DNA from: Gammaproteobacteria bacterium | Lineage (GTDB): Bacteria > Pseudomonadota > Gammaproteobacteria > Burkholderiales > Sulfuricellaceae | Direction: 5' to 3' | DNA length: 64,000 bases | Assembly: GCA_018823025.1 (NCBI GenBank) | Contig: JAHJJI010000142.1 | Span: 1 to 64,000 of the forward strand | In this document: piece after piece, positions 6,001 to 54,211 of the stretch | Numbering within the stretch: position 1 is the stretch's first letter | Layout of the letters: each line of letters starts with the position of its first letter | Program-made: the position numbers and the translations under genes | The notes under the pieces: generated by a model | Told to the model about the DNA's origin: nothing | Databases searched by the model: none | What the model saw: the letters and a program-made list of their open reading frames with translations, nothing else

Positions 6001-6615
6001 ATGAAGATCAAGGGTCTAGCCATCGCAGCGCTTGCTGCCAGTCTGACTGCCGGAGCAGCCACTACTTCGGTAGCCCAGGACATACCTAACTGGATTGGTG
6101 TTTCTGTCGGTAATACCCAGTTTAGCAACGATAACAATCTCAGCGGAATTACGCCCACTTCAACGGACAAATCCGACAATGCCTGGAAAATCTACCTGGG
6201 TATCCCGTTCAACAAATACCTGGGCCTGGAGCTTGGCTACGCAAAGCTGGGCGATCAATCCATTAATGGATTGTTTAATGGCGCTGTCGCTTCTTCCAGA
6301 GCGACCAGCACGGCTTACCTCTTTGATCTGGTAGGCAACTACGACTTCAATGAAAGCTTTTCGCTGTTAGGAAAGCTGGGCATGCATCGTTGGGGCGTAA
6401 ATGATGATACGACCAAAAATGGTATAAATGCTAGCAATGGTGCTGATGGCTTTAATTCTACTTACGGACTGGGCGTGCAGTACAACGTGAACAAAGATGT
6501 TGGCCTGCGCATGGAGTGGGAACGTATTAATAATATGGGCCACGAGGGCACAACCGGAAAAATCGATGCCAGCCTCATCACTATCGGTGTCGTGTACAGG
6601 TTCAAGATTCTGTAA
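6001..6615 (+). CDS. Outer-membrane beta-barrel protein (OmpA/OmpW-like)
   Basis: 204-residue secreted protein. The signal peptide (MKIKGLAIAALAASLTAG...) probably ends at SVA just before QDIPNW. The mature part alternates aromatic and polar residues as in small 8-stranded barrels, with pieces such as YLGLELGYAKLG, YLFDLVGNYDF and a terminal strand ending in FKIL. ATG 6001 is preceded by GGAGG. There is no peptidoglycan-binding domain. The substrate or role is unknown. A strong terminator follows. Confidence 0.8.
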   Translation: MKIKGLAIAALAASLTAGAATTSVAQDIPNWIGVSVGNTQFSNDNNLSGITPTSTDKSDNAWKIYLGIPFNKYLGLELGYAKLGDQSINGLFNGAVASSRATSTAYLFDLVGNYDFNESFSLLGKLGMHRWGVNDDTTKNGINASNGADGFNSTYGLGVQYNVNKDVGLRMEWERINNMGHEGTTGKIDASLITIGVVYRFKIL

Positions 6616-6631
6616 GACTGTAAGCCGTTTC

Positions 6632-6667
6632 AAAAAAAGCGGGCGAATATTTCGCCCGCTTTTTTAT
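6632..6667. terminator. Bidirectional Rho-independent terminator
   Basis: GCGGGCGAA / TTCGCCCGC, a perfect 9-bp stem with a 3-nt loop, with A7 on the left and T6 on the right. It serves the barrel gene (+) and the host-attachment gene (-). Confidence 0.93.
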
Positions 6668-6783
6668 TGGGTTGGCGTTTCCTTTACTTGCAAGTCAGCG
6701 TAATAGCCGGGGTGCAGGTTTCGACCTGGTCAGCGCGGTGCGGGAAGGATGCGGGGCGGTCTAGGTGGTGGGCCGCGGTCCTT

Positions 6784-7224
6784 TTATAGGTAAATGAATT
6801 TTTCCAGGTGGACTGCCAGTTCCTTTTGGGTGGCCTTAGTGTAGTCCTTGTCCAGGCTTTCACTTATCAGTCCGTGTACCTGGGTGCTGAACGTGTTGTT
6901 AAGCAGACCGCGGAAGTGGGGCTCTGCGGCCACGATGAGGCGCTGATACTGGTTGCCGGTGCGGCCTTGCTCAATATGGTGCGCGATTTCACGGGCGAAA
7001 ATTTCGTGCTCGTGCTGCTTCGGGTAGGTGGTTGGCTGGTGGGCACCATGGCCGTTTCCTGCGCTTTGCATGTGTCCGGATCGGTCGCTTACCAGGTCCG
7101 AGTTCTTTTTTCTGCTATCAGGATGGTCGAAGGCGGCGATCTTTTCCAGCCCCTTGCTGATTCCCGTGTTGGCGTAGAGTTGTGCTTCACTGGCGTTTGC
7201 GACAAGAATCCAGGTGGTAGTCAT
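6784..7224 (-). CDS. Host attachment family protein
   Basis: 146-residue cytosolic protein that begins MTTTWILVANASEAQLYANTG and ends in KELAVHLEKFIYL, as in the proteobacterial host attachment (Host_attach) family. The fold resembles the release-factor eRF1 middle domain. Despite the name, a role in phage or plant attachment is not established. It stands alone, between two minus/plus boundaries. Confidence 0.85.
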   Translation of the reverse strand: MTTTWILVANASEAQLYANTGISKGLEKIAAFDHPDSRKKNSDLVSDRSGHMQSAGNGHGAHQPTTYPKQHEHEIFAREIAHHIEQGRTGNQYQRLIVAAEPHFRGLLNNTFSTQVHGLISESLDKDYTKATQKELAVHLEKFIYL

Positions 7225-7303
7225 ATTGCCCTCTTCGAGTGGATGAACAAGACCAGTTTTAAGCGTACCACCTTATCCCATTGAGTCAAGGTATGGCTTG
7301 ATC

Positions 7304-8386
7304 TTACTCAAGCATTGCTTTCTTGGCAGCTTCGCGGAAGTCTTTCATGCTGATGCCTGCAGGGCGAAGAATGAGGGCCTCGTCGAACTGGGCATAATGC
7401 TTTGCAGTGGATTTGTTGTAGGCGGGGTCGTAGTGTTTTCCCAGTAATTCCCCGACCAGTTCGTCCCAGGCCAGTCCGGTGGAAAGCACCTGCCATTTCT
7501 GAATTACGCCCTTGCCGTGTATTCCGGTCAGGTGATCCAGTTTTTGACAAAGAGCTTGAGGGTTTTCGATAAAATGGACGTATTCCTCCTTGAGCAGCGC
7601 GATGCGTTGTTCCTGTGCCATTTCGACACGGACGCATTGACCACGTTGCCACATTTCCTCCAGCAAGGCGTCGGGCGCCCGAATATTGCCGATTTTTTTG
7701 CTTTCCGCTTCCACATAAACCGGATGGTCAGGGTCGAATTTCTGTAGCGCTTCCCAGAGTCGGCTTTCGAACAGCTTTTGTGAAGGCTGATCAGCGTCTG
7801 GCAGGTTACCCAGGATCGAGCCGCGGTGGGCGGCGAGTCCTTCCAGATCCAGCACCTGTGCGCCCAATTCATCCAGCGCGGCCAGCAGGCGACTTTTTCC
7901 GGAACCGGTAGGCCCGCAGATGACCCGGTAGTGGAAATGACCGGGCAGGGTTTGCAGCGTTGACAGCACCATGGTGCGGTAGGCTTTGTAACCGCCTTTC
8001 AACTGCTGGGCGCGCCAGCCTATCTGGTTCAGAATGTGTGTCATCGCGCCGCTACGGCTACCGCCGCGCCAACAATAGACCAGAGGCCGCCAGGATTTCG
8101 GTTTGTCGGAAAAAGCATGTTCCACATGATCGGCGATGTTGCGCGCAACCAGCGCCGCGCCGATTTTTTTGGCGTCGAAGGCTGAAGTCTGTTTGTAAAT
8201 GGTGCCGACCCGTGCGCGCTCCTCATCATTCAGTACCGGATAATTGATGGCTCCCGGGATATGGTCCTCTCGGAATTCGGAAGGTGAGCGTACATCGATG
8301 ATGTCGTCAAACTGGGCCAACTGTGCTAGGGTTAAGCCCTCGGCTGCAAGGGTGTTATGCCCGCGATCATTGCTTGTGAAATTCAT
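7304..8386 (-). CDS. mnmH: tRNA 2-selenouridine synthase
   Basis: 360 residues: an N-terminal rhodanese domain with the catalytic Cys105 in YCWRGGSRSG and a C-terminal P-loop domain with GPTGSGKS at 158-165. The enzyme turns 2-thiouridine at the tRNA wobble position into geranylthio- and then selenouridine, using selenophosphate. It diverges from selD, its selenophosphate supplier, with a gap of only 39 bp, so the two share a control region. Confidence 0.96.
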   Translation of the reverse strand: MNFTSNDRGHNTLAAEGLTLAQLAQFDDIIDVRSPSEFREDHIPGAINYPVLNDEERARVGTIYKQTSAFDAKKIGAALVARNIADHVEHAFSDKPKSWRPLVYCWRGGSRSGAMTHILNQIGWRAQQLKGGYKAYRTMVLSTLQTLPGHFHYRVICGPTGSGKSRLLAALDELGAQVLDLEGLAAHRGSILGNLPDADQPSQKLFESRLWEALQKFDPDHPVYVEAESKKIGNIRAPDALLEEMWQRGQCVRVEMAQEQRIALLKEEYVHFIENPQALCQKLDHLTGIHGKGVIQKWQVLSTGLAWDELVGELLGKHYDPAYNKSTAKHYAQFDEALILRPAGISMKDFREAAKKAMLE

Positions 8387-44682: not shown

Positions 44683-44718
44683 AAATCCCCCCTAGCCCCC
44701 CTTTTGCAAAGGGGGGGA
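44683..44718. repeat. Palindromic repeat, family A, copy 1
   Basis: AAATCCCCCCTAGCCCCCCTTTTGCAAAGGGGGGG. Arms CCCCCCTTTTGC / GCAAAGGGGGG. The G run stands 2 bp before the GTG start of the next gene and can act as its ribosome-binding site. Confidence 0.85.
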
Positions 44719-46368: not shown

Positions 46369-46401
46369 AATCCCCCCTAGCCCCCCTTTTTCAAAGGGGG
46401 G
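46368..46401. repeat. Palindromic repeat, family A, copy 2
   Basis: Begins at the portal stop codon and ends with GGGGGG 3 bp before the MuF start ATG at 46405, so it supplies both the intergenic sequence and the ribosome-binding site. Confidence 0.85.
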
Positions 46402-46404
46402 AAC

Positions 46405-48321
46405 ATGAGCGACCGCACCGCCATCCAGGCCGCCATTAAGCGGGCCACCAAAGCCGCGCAGACAGGCATGAACAGCCTGGATGCGGCGGCGTTGTCCGAG
46501 CTGGAGCAGGTTTACCAGCAGGCGGCGGCGGATATTCAGGCGCAGATCCAGGCGCATGCCGGGGGTGACGGTAAGCTGGCGCTATCTGAGCTGCAATCTC
46601 TGCGCGACCAGGTGGGTTTTCGGCTTTCCAAGCTGTCCGAGACCCGGAATGTGCTGCTGCAGCAGAAGCTGGGGGAGGCGTCTGCTTTGGGGGTGGATCC
46701 GTTCACGGTTCAAATCCCCCCTAGCCCCCCTTTTGCAAAGGGGGGGATTTACGGAGATGGGCTTTTATCGGCTTCGGCGGCGATGCAGATCAATAACGAG
46801 GCATTGCAGTTCGTGCGCACCTTTGTGGCGGCGGACGGTTTGCAGCTTTCCGATCGCATCTGGCGGATCGACCGGCATGCACGCGAGGCGGTGACGGGAT
46901 CTCTGGAGCAGGCGATTATCCAGGGGCACGGCGCTTCGCAGGCGGCGCGGGATTTTCTGATGCGCGGGGAGGCTGTGCCGCTGGATATCCAGAACAAGAT
47001 GGGTATGGCGAACGCAGGTAAGGTGGGGAAAGAGGCGGCCGGCGCGCTGTTCGCCGGGAATGGTTCGCCGCTGGATAACGCGATGCGGTTGTTCAGAACC
47101 GAGATCAACCGGGCGCACGGCACGGCTTATTTGAAGGGCGCGGAGGCGCACCCGGATTGTGTCGGCACGCGCTTTCTGATCTCGCCATCTCATCCGCAGC
47201 ACGACATTTGCGACCTGCACGCCAGCGCGAACCTGCATGGCCTCGGCCCGGGTGTTTATCCTCCAGGTAAAACCCCGTGGCCAGCTCACCCGAACACATT
47301 AAGTTATGTGGTGGCGGTGTTCAAGGATGAGGTGACAGCCGCAGACAAGGCCGGCAAGGAAAACGCCATGCAGGCGTTGGACCGGCTGACTCCGGCGCAG
47401 CGCATCGGCGTGCTGGGGGTGAACAAGCACGAGGTGTTCAAGGAAGGGAAGCTGACGCAGGGGATGATCAAGGCACCGTGGAAGGCGGTGCAGAAGCGAA
47501 TCGGCATCAAACCACCTGTCAAGCCGGTGCCGATACCGAAGCCGGTGAAAACGGTTGCGCCTGCGAACCTTTCCCTGGGCGAAATGATTTCTGCCGGCGC
47601 ATCGATCGGGGATGGATTTTTAAAAGTGGCTCAGACTTCCAGCGGGATTAACGGGCCGCGGCTGTTTGAAGAGATACATAAGCAGCTCGGCGCGCTTCGC
47701 CCGATCAACACGCCGACAAAGGTGGTGAATAGCGGGAAAGGTGCGGAATGGGTCAAAGCGGCATCGCGGATTTTTCCAGATGACTGGACAAAGCTGGCCG
47801 ATGCCTACGGGCCGCTGAGTGTCAGGGCGACTACGGGCAGGGGAAGACAGTCTTCGCTAAATCATGATGTCAAAGGAGAGCGTTACAGAATGGCCGGCTT
47901 TGGCGTGATCACCTCCAAAGGCGGAGACGGGTTTATTTCCACCGGGAGTTTTTCCACTTCGGTGCACGAATACACCCACCGGTTGCAGCATGTCATTCCA
48001 GAGCTGGATGATTATTTCCAGAATCTGCATGCCAGGCGGACGGCAAGCGATCCGCTGAAGCGCTTGCGGGATTTATTTCCGGGCTATAATTACCGCAGGG
48101 ATGAAGTGGCGCGCGAGGACAAATATGTTTCCGCGTACCAGGGCAAGGTGTATTCTGGCTATGGGCACTCCTACCTGGGCAAGCACGGGGCGCTGGAAGT
48201 CATGACCATGGCGTTCGAGGATGTGCTGGGCGGATCTGCGGTCAGGCTGGAAAAGATCGTTGAACACGACCGAGAAATGTTTAACCTGGTGATCGGGCTG
48301 TTATTCAAATATGTACCGTAA
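46405..48321 (+). CDS. MuF-type head protein with C-terminal HExxH domain
   Basis: 638 residues. Residues 1-330 fit a MuF minor head protein: helical start, FRTEINRAHGTAYLKGAE, CDLHASANLHGLGPGVYPPG, WPAHPNTLSYVV. Residues 103-114 (IPPSPPFAKGGI) come from a palindromic repeat read in frame. After a Pro-rich linker (PPVKPVPIPKPVK, near 373) comes a second domain with HEYTH at 521-525 and a candidate third ligand E598 (ALEVMTMAFE), as in gluzincin-like metallopeptidases. MuF proteins with C-terminal toxin domains are known in phages. Substrate unknown. Confidence 0.8.
   Translation: MSDRTAIQAAIKRATKAAQTGMNSLDAAALSELEQVYQQAAADIQAQIQAHAGGDGKLALSELQSLRDQVGFRLSKLSETRNVLLQQKLGEASALGVDPFTVQIPPSPPFAKGGIYGDGLLSASAAMQINNEALQFVRTFVAADGLQLSDRIWRIDRHAREAVTGSLEQAIIQGHGASQAARDFLMRGEAVPLDIQNKMGMANAGKVGKEAAGALFAGNGSPLDNAMRLFRTEINRAHGTAYLKGAEAHPDCVGTRFLISPSHPQHDICDLHASANLHGLGPGVYPPGKTPWPAHPNTLSYVVAVFKDEVTAADKAGKENAMQALDRLTPAQRIGVLGVNKHEVFKEGKLTQGMIKAPWKAVQKRIGIKPPVKPVPIPKPVKTVAPANLSLGEMISAGASIGDGFLKVAQTSSGINGPRLFEEIHKQLGALRPINTPTKVVNSGKGAEWVKAASRIFPDDWTKLADAYGPLSVRATTGRGRQSSLNHDVKGERYRMAGFGVITSKGGDGFISTGSFSTSVHEYTHRLQHVIPELDDYFQNLHARRTASDPLKRLRDLFPGYNYRRDEVAREDKYVSAYQGKVYSGYGHSYLGKHGALEVMTMAFEDVLGGSAVRLEKIVEHDREMFNLVIGLLFKYVP
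46712..46748. repeat. Palindromic repeat, family A, copy 3, in MuF gene
   Basis: AAATCCCCCCTAG then CCCCCCTTTTGCAAAGGGGG, nearly identical to copy 1. In frame, encoding IPPSPPFAKGG. Confidence 0.85.
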
Positions 48322-48971: not shown

Positions 48972-49769
48972 ATGACGAATCTTGACCAGCAGTTTTCTGA
49001 AGTCCTTATCAAGCAACATAGCTTGGAGGCTCATCCTGTCTTTTCCGCCATCAAAACACTAGACGATTTACGTGTGTTCATGTCCTGGCATGTGTTTGCG
49101 GTATGGGATTTTATGTCCCTGCTTAAGCAACTCCAGCGCAAGTTGACCTGTGTTGATTTGCCTTGGGTGCCGCCAGCTAATCCTGTCGCATCAAGACTTA
49201 TCAATGAGATTGTACTGGGTGAGGAATGTGATGAAATGCCAGGAGGAGGGCATCTCAGTCACTTTGAGATATATTTACTGGCAATGCGTGAAATAGGCGC
49301 TGATACTAGGCAGATTGAGGATTTCGTACGGCTCATTCGTGCAGGCACATCGGTCGAGATGGCATTACAATCGGCGGGGGTGGATTGGGCAGTCAGTCGC
49401 TTTGTGACCAGCACCCTTAACACTGCTATTACGGGTAGCGTGAATGAAGTGCTGGGCAGTTTTTTCTTTGGACGGGAAAACGTCATTCCCGCAATGTTCA
49501 GGAGTCTGTTGGCACAATGGCAGGTAGACGAAAAGAAAACGCCAGTATTTGTCTACTACCTCAATCGTCATATTGAGCTGGACGGCGATAGCCATGGCCC
49601 CGCAACCTGGAATATCATCAAGGAACTAGTCGGCGATGATCCTTTTGCCAACGCTCAGGTCAAGTCTGCCGCAGAAGAAGCTATCAATGCGCGACGGGAT
49701 TTATGGGACGGGTTGGCGGCGTGTTTAAAAGATATTAATGCCCAACCCCTCGAAAAGATGAGGGCGTAA
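48972..49769 (+). CDS. DUF3050 heme-oxygenase-like protein
   Basis: 265 residues matching DUF3050: FMSWHVFAVWDFMSLLKQLQ, RLINEIVLGEECDE and YYLNRHIELDGDSHGP. These Glu/His positions fit the metal site of heme-oxygenase-like diiron oxidases, so an oxidase role is a reasonable inference. It is not a structural phage gene; it sits between head genes, flanked by about 300 bp of sequence without genes on each side. Confidence 0.85.
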   Translation: MTNLDQQFSEVLIKQHSLEAHPVFSAIKTLDDLRVFMSWHVFAVWDFMSLLKQLQRKLTCVDLPWVPPANPVASRLINEIVLGEECDEMPGGGHLSHFEIYLLAMREIGADTRQIEDFVRLIRAGTSVEMALQSAGVDWAVSRFVTSTLNTAITGSVNEVLGSFFFGRENVIPAMFRSLLAQWQVDEKKTPVFVYYLNRHIELDGDSHGPATWNIIKELVGDDPFANAQVKSAAEEAINARRDLWDGLAACLKDINAQPLEKMRA

Positions 49770-51520: not shown

Positions 51521-54211
51521 GTGAGGCTATTAAATCCCCCCCAGCCCCCCTTTTTAAAAAGGGGGGAGTTTGAGAGAGCCCTCTTTTGCAAAAGGGGGGA
51601 GCTTGAGAGATCCCTCTTTTGCGAAAGGGGGGAGTTTGAGAGATCCATCTTTTGCAAAAGGGGGAGAGTGTTGAGGCTCGAAGCTGGTAACCCTTCCGGG
51701 GCAGTGCGATTCCTGTCCGGGCTCCATGTGAATCTGGAGGAGGGAAAGAACACCAGCTGGGTGACGTTGACGCGTACCGGGACATTCTCGGATCCGCGCT
51801 ACGGCAAGTTCGACATTACCAGGGAAATGCTGCTTTCGATGGTGCGCAATTTCGATGCGCGCACTTACGGGCAGGATATTTTCGCGGATGTTTCACACCG
51901 TCCCGATCTCGGAGCGGCGGGGACTTTTCTCAGCCTGAAGATCGAAGGCGACCGGCTGCGTGCGCAGGTCGAGTGGACGCCTTACGGCATCGACGCGATC
52001 AAGAGCAAGGGCTACAAATATTTTTCTGTCGAATTCCATGAGAACTGGAAAGACAACGAGGCAGGAAAACAGCACGGCACCGTTTTATTGGGCGCTGCAT
52101 TGACCGTGCGTCCGGTCATCAAAGGGCTCGCTCCCGTCACGCTCTCCGAAGCTGTTGGCGAAACACCGACTTATTTACATCCTGAATTGCAATCCACCCT
52201 ATTAGAGGAGATTTCCGTCATGAAAGAGAAGATGCTCAAGGCGCTGCGCGCCAAACTGGAAGCCCGCAAGCTGGCCGAAGTCAACATCAACCAGATTCTG
52301 CTGGCGTATGCCGCTGCGCTGGGCGAGGTGACTGATGAGGCCAAGGCCGAGGTGCTGCTGGCCGAATTTGACGTGCTGGGCCAGCAACTATTCGACGCAG
52401 TTGGCGAAAAACCCGCAACGATCCAGCTCTCCGTCGCCGGTACCGGCGTGACCGCCGCTGACGTAACCCGCATCCTGGCAGAATCTCAAGCCAAGGTAGC
52501 CGACGAGGCGCGCAAGCTGGCCGAGGGCCGCGAAACCAACGTGAAGCTGCTGGCCGACACGATTAACGCCGCTGCCGGGCTGGATGACGCCACCAAGAAG
52601 GCGCTGGCCGCCGAAGTAGCTGACCTGATCACCCCGGCGATGACTGCCGACCAGGTGAAGCGCCTGGCAGAAAACCAGATCAAGCACGGTAACGAAGTGG
52701 TAGCTGCGCGCCAGCTGTCCAACATGGGCTTTCAATGGCCAGCTGGCAACGTGCATATCAGCGTGGACAGCTCGAACAACGTGAAGGCGTTGCAGGAACA
52801 AGCCGACAAGATTCTGGGCTATACCAGTATGCACCCCGCGCAGCGCTTCGACCGCACCGCCGGTCAGCTGCAAACCGTGAACAAGGAACTGGCCGAGAAG
52901 GTGCTGGCGCAGTTTGACGCAGCTAATGGCCCCCGCCTGCATGCTGAGCACAAATTGCTGGCAGCCGGTGATAGCGTGGTATCTGACGTGGCGGTTCCGG
53001 CTTCATTCGAGCGCACTGTGATCCGCGAGGCGTTGTACAACATGGTCGGCTTGCAGTTCATGGATGTGGGCGTGGAGATGTTCTCTACCGTGCACCAGAT
53101 TCCATACAGCTACCGCGATACGACGGCTGCAGGGCGCGGGAATACACGGACGTTTGAAGGCCAGCCGATCAAGCGTGCAGCATTGAAACAGACCGTGGAA
53201 AGCGCTTACCAGACACCACAGAAAATTGCGTTCGAGGTATCGGACGAACTGGGTTACCTGACCAGCAACGGGCAGCTGAACTGGAACGCGATGATGGAGA
53301 ATGCCCGCAATGCGGTGCGCATTATTGGCGAGGACACCGAGCAGCTGGTTTTCGATGAAACGCTTAATGCTTCTGATCAGTACGCCACTGTGGCGGTGGT
53401 AGGAGAAGCCACCGGTACCGGTAACGCTGCCAAGACAATTTTCCCGCTGGGCAACTTCCCGGTGGTGCGCCCAAAGAAGGTTTACGACCTGCAGGGCACG
53501 CTGGTGGGTAGCGCGCTGTACGGTATTACGGTGACGGTAGCTGCCGCCGCGAAGCTCGAGTATGACGGCACCAACACGCAGGCGGCAGGGTTGTACTGGA
53601 AGATTGACTACAACCTGGGTGAACTCACCTTTGTGAGCGAGCTGGGCGTACCTACCGCAGTGGCCAACTTGGCGGCCATCGTGGCGGGCTACACCTACAC
53701 CACCAACGTCTACAAGTTCGACACCGATCTGGGAGCGCTGAAGGTCGAGGAGAAGTGGGACGATTTCCTGTACCGCTTTGGTCTGCGTAAAAACATCATC
53801 GAGTATGACCGCTACCATGCCTGCAACTTCTCGGTAATGAGCGGCACGGTGCGCACTCAGGCAGAGCAGGCACGCAGCTTCGTGGAAAGCTGGGCACGCA
53901 AGGGAACCGATCTTTCCATGGAGGGCAACCTGGGGCAGATCAAAGGCGTGCAGCAATATGCCAGCACCGCCCCCGGTCTGGCGATGGGTGACCAGCGCGT
54001 GGTGATCGGCGAGCGCGGCATTACGCGCTATCGCATGACCAAGCCCTGGACGATGAATCCGCTTGAAAATCAGAAAGACTCGAGCGGACGATTCACTGGC
54101 AAGAAAGAAGCCTATGGCGACCAGTTCATCGTGCTGCATACCCCAACGTTGTTGAAAGGCGCGTTGACCAGTATGGCGCTGTACAGCTCCAGCACTCGGG
54201 TATCTCGTTAA
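51521..54211 (+). CDS. Fused Mu-like protease, scaffold and major capsid protein
   Basis: 896 residues from GTG 51521 (GAGG upstream). After 48 residues encoded by tandem repeats comes a Mu-I-like prohead protease (about 50-215: HVNLEEGKNTSWVTLTRTGT, DPRYGKFDITREML, VSHRPDLGAAG, VEWTPYGIDAIKSKGYKYFS, LLGAALTVRPVIKG), a helical scaffold region (about 235-400) and a capsid-like C-terminus (about 440-896). The protease and capsid are usually separate genes. An internal ATG at 52220 with GAGGAG could give a 663-residue scaffold-capsid product. The true N-terminus is uncertain because of the inserted repeats; GTG 51668 is an alternative. Confidence 0.78.
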   Translation: MRLLNPPQPPFLKRGEFERALFCKRGELERSLFCERGEFERSIFCKRGRVLRLEAGNPSGAVRFLSGLHVNLEEGKNTSWVTLTRTGTFSDPRYGKFDITREMLLSMVRNFDARTYGQDIFADVSHRPDLGAAGTFLSLKIEGDRLRAQVEWTPYGIDAIKSKGYKYFSVEFHENWKDNEAGKQHGTVLLGAALTVRPVIKGLAPVTLSEAVGETPTYLHPELQSTLLEEISVMKEKMLKALRAKLEARKLAEVNINQILLAYAAALGEVTDEAKAEVLLAEFDVLGQQLFDAVGEKPATIQLSVAGTGVTAADVTRILAESQAKVADEARKLAEGRETNVKLLADTINAAAGLDDATKKALAAEVADLITPAMTADQVKRLAENQIKHGNEVVAARQLSNMGFQWPAGNVHISVDSSNNVKALQEQADKILGYTSMHPAQRFDRTAGQLQTVNKELAEKVLAQFDAANGPRLHAEHKLLAAGDSVVSDVAVPASFERTVIREALYNMVGLQFMDVGVEMFSTVHQIPYSYRDTTAAGRGNTRTFEGQPIKRAALKQTVESAYQTPQKIAFEVSDELGYLTSNGQLNWNAMMENARNAVRIIGEDTEQLVFDETLNASDQYATVAVVGEATGTGNAAKTIFPLGNFPVVRPKKVYDLQGTLVGSALYGITVTVAAAAKLEYDGTNTQAAGLYWKIDYNLGELTFVSELGVPTAVANLAAIVAGYTYTTNVYKFDTDLGALKVEEKWDDFLYRFGLRKNIIEYDRYHACNFSVMSGTVRTQAEQARSFVESWARKGTDLSMEGNLGQIKGVQQYASTAPGLAMGDQRVVIGERGITRYRMTKPWTMNPLENQKDSSGRFTGKKEAYGDQFIVLHTPTLLKGALTSMALYSSSTRVSR
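51532..51667. repeat. Palindromic repeat family A, copy 4, with tandem 33-bp units
   Basis: One full family A element (51532-51566) is followed by three 33-bp units, each GAG(T/C)TTGAGAGA... ending TTTTGC(A/G)AAAGGGGG. Since 33 bp is 11 codons, they encode 11-residue repeats of the type EFERALFCKRG within the capsid polyprotein. Confidence 0.88.

Follow-up and report, generated by a model that had tools for sequence, protein, structure and literature searches.

A phage protease-scaffold-capsid fusion gene with a conserved internal start that is predicted to yield two nested head proteins

A prophage head gene in the window, the whole 64,000-nucleotide stretch of DNA that was analysed, joins a maturation protease, a helical scaffold and a modelled HK97-fold major capsid domain in one frame. 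Very probably, a single mRNA of this gene gives rise to two proteins that co-assemble, a major 663-aa scaffold-capsid protein and a minor 847-aa protein that also carries the protease. Comparison with relatives firmly supports the domain assignments, the conservation of the fusion and the action of selection on an internal start and its ribosome-binding site.

Domain order and N-terminus of the gene

The open frame from 51521 to 54211 on the plus strand has no internal stop. An earlier note on this DNA had read it as one 896-codon protease-scaffold-capsid frame. The fusion stands, as it recurs in 107 loci, but the N-terminus must be moved, with GTG 51668 and a length of 847 aa being likelier. 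Specifically, the codons from 51521 to 51667 read through a 33-bp tandem repeat (51546 to 51664, about 3.5 copies, unstranded) that is made of REP-like CCCCCTTTTgcAAAAGGGGG palindromes and has the look of a host-type insertion, the same palindrome family being dispersed over the host genome. Since roughly the first 49 codons cross this host array, and since the homology of the relatives begins only past it at about GTG 51668, a start at 51521 is unlikely. The true start is thus probably GTG 51668, giving a gene from 51668 to 54211 on the plus strand, with TTG 51671 as a possible alternative. GTG 51668 is preceded by GGGGGAGA, a purine-rich stretch that the repeat array itself provides. Residues are numbered throughout from GTG 51668. 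Other REP-like palindromes occur in the prophage head-gene region at window positions 44697-44716, 46382-46401 and 46726-46745 in addition to the 51546-51664 array. One lies within a 638-aa head-morphogenesis ORF, and one adjoins the N-terminal end of the fusion frame. A DUF3050 (haem-oxygenase-like) gene at 48972-49769, an unusual cargo, is also found between head genes.

The N-terminal part of the protein matches PF10123 (Mu prophage I protease) with an E-value of 6.5e-12 and a score of 46.1 bits against a curated cut-off of 25.2, and it also matches phrog_328 (head maturation protease), which bears out the Mu-I-like protease domain proposed in the earlier note. These matches, together with invariant columns and a fold match, delimit a protease domain at residues 29-146 (51752 to 52105, plus strand). 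When modelled alone this domain reaches a pLDDT of 87.9, with Z scores of 8-10.8 to herpesvirus assemblins and T4 gp21. His77 (51896-51898) and Ser120 (52025-52027) are invariant among the aligned relatives and are probably the catalytic pair. The modelled domain thus has an assemblin-type fold, with a conserved serine and histidine whose catalytic role is putative.

An AlphaFold model built from 77 aligned relatives (mean pLDDT of 84.7) places behind the beta-rich region of residues 29-146 a scaffold region of long helices at residues 172-352 (52181 to 52723), a low-confidence linker at residues 353-367 (52724 to 52768) and a C-terminal domain, all on the plus strand. The C-terminal part has no capsid match by sequence in Pfam, PHROG or NCBIfam, and the family profile likewise has no match by sequence among PDB chains. 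Structural comparison of about residues 381-842 (52808 to 54193) with HK97-fold capsids gives a Foldseek E-value of 2e-8 and VIA Z scores of 14-17, and these matches assign the model to the HK97 fold, which is characterized by an E-loop, a spine helix, a P domain and an A domain. Because the domain libraries gave this part no name, its capsid identity is settled by the structure model alone, whereas the protease is named by PF10123 and phrog_328. The helical scaffold and capsid-like domain noticed earlier from the letters are therefore both recovered by modelling, and the protease and capsid domains share one uninterrupted frame, as in a natural fusion of protease and major capsid protein.

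The internal ATG at 52220-52222 is in frame and is preceded by a Shine-Dalgarno motif, GAGGAG (52205 to 52210), with a 9-nt spacer, exactly as the earlier note had described. It is residue 185 of the long product, and initiation there would give a nested scaffold-capsid protein of 663 aa (52220 to 54211, plus strand) that is without the first 13 residues of the scaffold region.

Conservation of the fusion and of the internal start

Relatives of the gene occur in a cultured phage of Microcystis, vB_MaeS-yong1 (yong1; 40%), and in other genomes of the source's family, order and class. At least 203 stretches in IMG/VR encode a relative, the best 80 of which were retained, and an alignment-based scan of bacterial genome contigs located 53 loci, whereas a scan of genome contigs with the single protein returned nothing. 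Scanning with the L176 protein returned distant capsid pieces only. There were 135 loci initially scored as fused, and after removal of one (L056) the set was made non-redundant at 90% identity, leaving 107 loci. The same one-gene fusion is present in all 107, which come from separate assemblies of isolates, MAGs and viral contigs; complete chromosomes and phage yong1 are among them. The dropped locus has an in-frame TAG in the scaffold at about position 1194 (GLT*DDVKR) and is otherwise full-length, which could reflect mutation, sequencing error or recoding.

The relatives without the fusion are of two kinds only, namely decayed copies and genes of other elements that encode the capsid alone. 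Two pairs of loci that appeared unfused were rejected as such, one (L018/L027) being decayed copies with a frameshift and foreign sequence and the other (L017/L026) decayed copies with a deletion. An apparent split gene (G006) was likewise rejected, as its two parts lie on contigs that overlap exactly over 141 bp, the break being one of contigs and not of the gene. Among the remaining irregular loci L159 is split into several frames, L161 has no capsid adjoining and the end of L110 looks truncated or chimeric. The earlier note had named, as a finding that would count against it, related phages in which the genes are separate and an internal start is lacking; none appeared among these relatives. 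The capsid-only relatives (about 500 aa; L025 reverse strand 6319-7923, L106:4866-6428 and L141:4902-6434) have their own start region and are located 3' of a tyrosine integrase, with tape-measure genes coming after; a DUF927 helicase is also upstream of the capsid-only gene in L141 and apparently in L025. A PF10123 protease was not found in their genomes or records by a weak search in which the positive control gave no signal. These loci may be satellites, or they may belong to some other class of integrative element, having in either case acquired the capsid without protease and scaffold.

Each of the 107 non-redundant relatives carries a start codon at the internal site (104 ATG and 3 GTG), while the residues flanking it vary and in some relatives the methionine is displaced by one codon. 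A tree built without the columns neighbouring the internal start, whose branches sum to 37 substitutions per site, places two independent changes from ATG to GTG and no change to a non-start codon. As a valine encoded by GTG preserves initiation and loses the methionine, this indicates selection on the start rather than on the residue. A Shine-Dalgarno core of at least 4 nt precedes the internal start in 100 of the 107 genes, most often with a spacer of 9 nt, as compared with 97 of the 1,743 other in-frame ATGs in the same genes. Correspondingly, the mean anti-Shine-Dalgarno energy across the family is -7.0 at the internal start versus -5.3 in synonymous shuffles and -3.2 at other ATGs.

Constraint on this site is also evident from synonymous codon identity, which was taken as the rate at which relatives with identical residues use the same codon and was compared with the rest of the gene. 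Observed identity exceeds expectation at codons -4 (0.91 versus 0.57), -5 (0.77 versus 0.64), -1 (0.82 versus 0.49) and +1 (0.88 versus 0.69), with codon -12 similarly raised (0.74 versus 0.54) and the remaining nearby codons at or below expectation. The relatives in these pairwise comparisons are not independent, and single tests were given no p-value weight; the overall pattern nevertheless reads as the trace of a ribosome-binding site that overlaps coding sequence. The leucine codons at -6 and -7, immediately 5' of the Shine-Dalgarno motif, agree less between relatives than expected (0.29 and 0.26 versus 0.45 and 0.46), as would be seen if rare A/T-rich leucine codons were preferred here because they leave the site free of structure.

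Analysis of single genes is much less informative. The Shine-Dalgarno energy of the window gene is no stronger than that of its synonymous shuffles (-9.1 versus -8.5) because its Glu-Glu pair forces the motif, so that constraint is visible only family-wide. Gln-Glu or Glu-Glu residues have the same effect across the family, where only 3% of genes differ from their shuffles at p<0.05. Given this weakness, the argument is carried by the family-wide codon test and by the comparison with other ATGs, which together indicate that selection maintains ATG 52220 in its role as an initiation codon. The earlier proposal that this start gives scaffold-capsid alone has in this way gained comparative evidence, from the start codon in 107/107 relatives, from the synonymous constraint on the ribosome-binding site and from alignment with the start of Mu gene Z.

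Predicted products and alternative readings

We infer translation of both products, their ratio, their co-assembly and the site of cleavage as follows. Initiation at GTG 51668 would produce the minor 847-aa protease-scaffold-capsid protein, and initiation at ATG 52220 the main 663-aa scaffold-capsid protein that would form the bulk shell subunit. As scaffold and shell domains are common to both, the two would co-assemble into a prohead in which a few long copies bring the protease inside. The protease would then cleave itself as well as the scaffold region, the latter probably around residues 353-367, and what stays behind would be an emptied shell of mature capsid protein (about 480 aa). Cleavage is placed at this linker because pLDDT dips there and because the capsid-only relatives begin there. 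From the precedent of Mu, lambda and herpesvirus, it is a reasonable inference that the ratio of long to short product sets the protease dosage; the Shine-Dalgarno energy is similar at the two starts (-6.8 upstream and -7.0 internally), so the ratio itself is not readable from sequence.

An alternative is that the gene encodes a plain polyprotein made only at full length, in which case every subunit would lose its protease by cleavage inside the prohead and the internal methionine would be merely structural. The frame is indeed open throughout, and the labels of fusion or capsid polyprotein have been given to other protease-capsid fusions, namely those of MD8 (PMC8508860) and PAJU2 (as cited in PMC8306868). 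However, a structural methionine does not account for its replacement by valine only as GTG, for the shift of the exact methionine codon by one among relatives or for conservation under the Shine-Dalgarno motif that peaks in nucleotides and not in amino acids. A 1:1 ratio of protease to shell would also mean hundreds of protease domains per prohead, and we regard the polyprotein as improbable. Even less probable is that the internal start has no function and simply persists as a fossil from before the gene fusion. This start is probably homologous to that of Mu Z and hence inherited, but a fossil should have decayed among proteins with 35-70% identity, and instead it is retained in 107/107 relatives with synonymous constraint on its ribosome-binding site. 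As for an assembly error or missed stop that joined two genes, we found no point in its favour. This concern, which the earlier note had voiced together with a frameshift, is answered by the presence of the fusion in 107 non-redundant loci of many source types and by the split in G006 being a contig break, and its probability is negligible.

The two-product reading may on the other hand hold for the family and be idle in the window, should this copy belong to a decaying prophage. The host repeat array lies right at the N-terminus of the gene, other repeats are in or near neighbouring head genes, and related genomes do contain decayed copies (L017/L026 and L018/L027). Against this, the 847-aa frame is intact, the putative catalytic residues are the invariant ones and the surrounding head and tail genes are open, making decay of this copy a possibility to be kept in mind and not the expected state.

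Comparison with known fusions and head genes

Protease-capsid fusions are already known, examples being NCBIfam NF045541 (scaf_prot_MCP2, protease/MCP fusion) and phage MD8, in which a single gene was proposed by its authors to carry all three functions (PMC8508860). The known fusions, including those of Rhodobacter, Arthrobacter and Microbacterium phages, resemble the window gene in having a protease and an HK97-fold capsid in one gene; they differ in having S78 or ClpP proteases and capsids of families PF25209 and PF05065, and neither the window protein nor its genome matches NF045541 at its 525-bit cut-off. Among 62 non-redundant S78/ClpP fusions, which are unrelated to the window gene, 54 have an ATG with a Shine-Dalgarno core at the protease/scaffold junction, compared with 0-14 such ATGs in 60-residue windows elsewhere in the gene. 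Examples include RcKvothe (L282), S1, VP882 (L287), vB_EcoM-ep3, MinM1, Alexa and LPPA33, and MD8 (L293) and mEp460 have the same junction ATG. Under the stricter comparison with synonymous shuffles, this set stands out only when its genes are taken together (Wilcoxon p 8e-4; singly, 13% reach p<0.05), and we therefore rate it as only likely that the junction start in these fusions works in the same manner. That phage protease-capsid fusions generally are nested two-product genes with a selected internal start, across at least three unrelated protease types (Mu-I, S78 and ClpP), is a generalization that we favour somewhat. A literature search, with most subscription papers outside its reach, turned up no report of an internal start in a protease-capsid fusion.

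Shell subunits are needed by the hundred in a phage head, whereas proteases are generally expected to be much less numerous. The protease-capsid fusions that annotations now often contain thus raise a problem of stoichiometry that a conserved internal start would resolve. If the general reading is true, then the fused layout works only because nested translation supplies protease-free capsid subunits. Database records of a 'fusion protein' would become two-product genes, a tagged or recoded clone could lose the main capsid protein, and the understanding of capsid maturation would be affected as well.

The closest model for the window gene is Mu I/Z, which has a PF10123 protease and an in-frame internal start (codon 179 in Mu, 185 here) with AGGAG before it. 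According to the NC_000929 annotation the start of Mu gene Z is codon 179 of gene I, with CAACAGGAGAACAAACCC in front, and in PaMx73, a Mu-like P. aeruginosa phage, a GTG that follows ACGAGGA at codon 177 has been described as a putative internal start (PMC4378225). In a profile alignment the Mu Z start and that of the window gene differ in position by about one residue at most (Mu ...DILQQENKPMNETLRKLL, window ...STLLEEISVMKEKMLKAL), and in the 107-row alignment the Mu Z methionine is 2-4 columns from the family start columns, varying with gap placement. From this alignment we conclude that the internal start is probably older than the fusion and is the ancestral start of a Mu-type scaffold Z, the new step probably being the joining of the scaffold frame to the downstream capsid gene. 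An internal start with a ribosome-binding site that would give a protease-free scaffold is thus present here as in Mu, as judged from sequence. The difference is that the Mu frame stops after the scaffold and its capsid gene T is separate, so that the nested product is scaffold Z, whereas here all 107 relatives are fused and the nested product would be scaffold-capsid. The capsid domain has no detectable relation to Mu gpT.

In lambda the scaffold Nu3 is nested in the protease gene, C, and its translation begins at an internal start there; C and Nu3 reportedly were found to overlap by Shaw and Murialdo in 1980 (cited in PMC8508860). The analogy with lambda drawn in the earlier note is therefore apt, but Mu I/Z is nearer. 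Lambda has an S49/ClpP-like protease and a separate capsid gene E, unlike the PF10123/assemblin fold and fused capsid seen here, and the window gene would work like C/Nu3 without being a member. Herpesvirus UL26/UL26.5 also encodes a protease-scaffold and, nested within that frame, the scaffold by itself, and the computed fold match extends this likeness to the assemblin protease itself; there, in contrast, UL26.5 has its own nested transcript and the major capsid protein is a separate gene. Finally, the predicted short product has the layout of HK97 gp5, in which an N-terminal scaffold (delta) domain is fused to an HK97-fold capsid (PMC10275583), although the HK97 protease gp4 is a separate gene and not an N-terminal extension of the same one. 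The window gene would thus yield from one frame both the nested arrangement of Mu I/Z and lambda C/Nu3 and the scaffold domain-capsid layout of HK97, and so provides a link between them.
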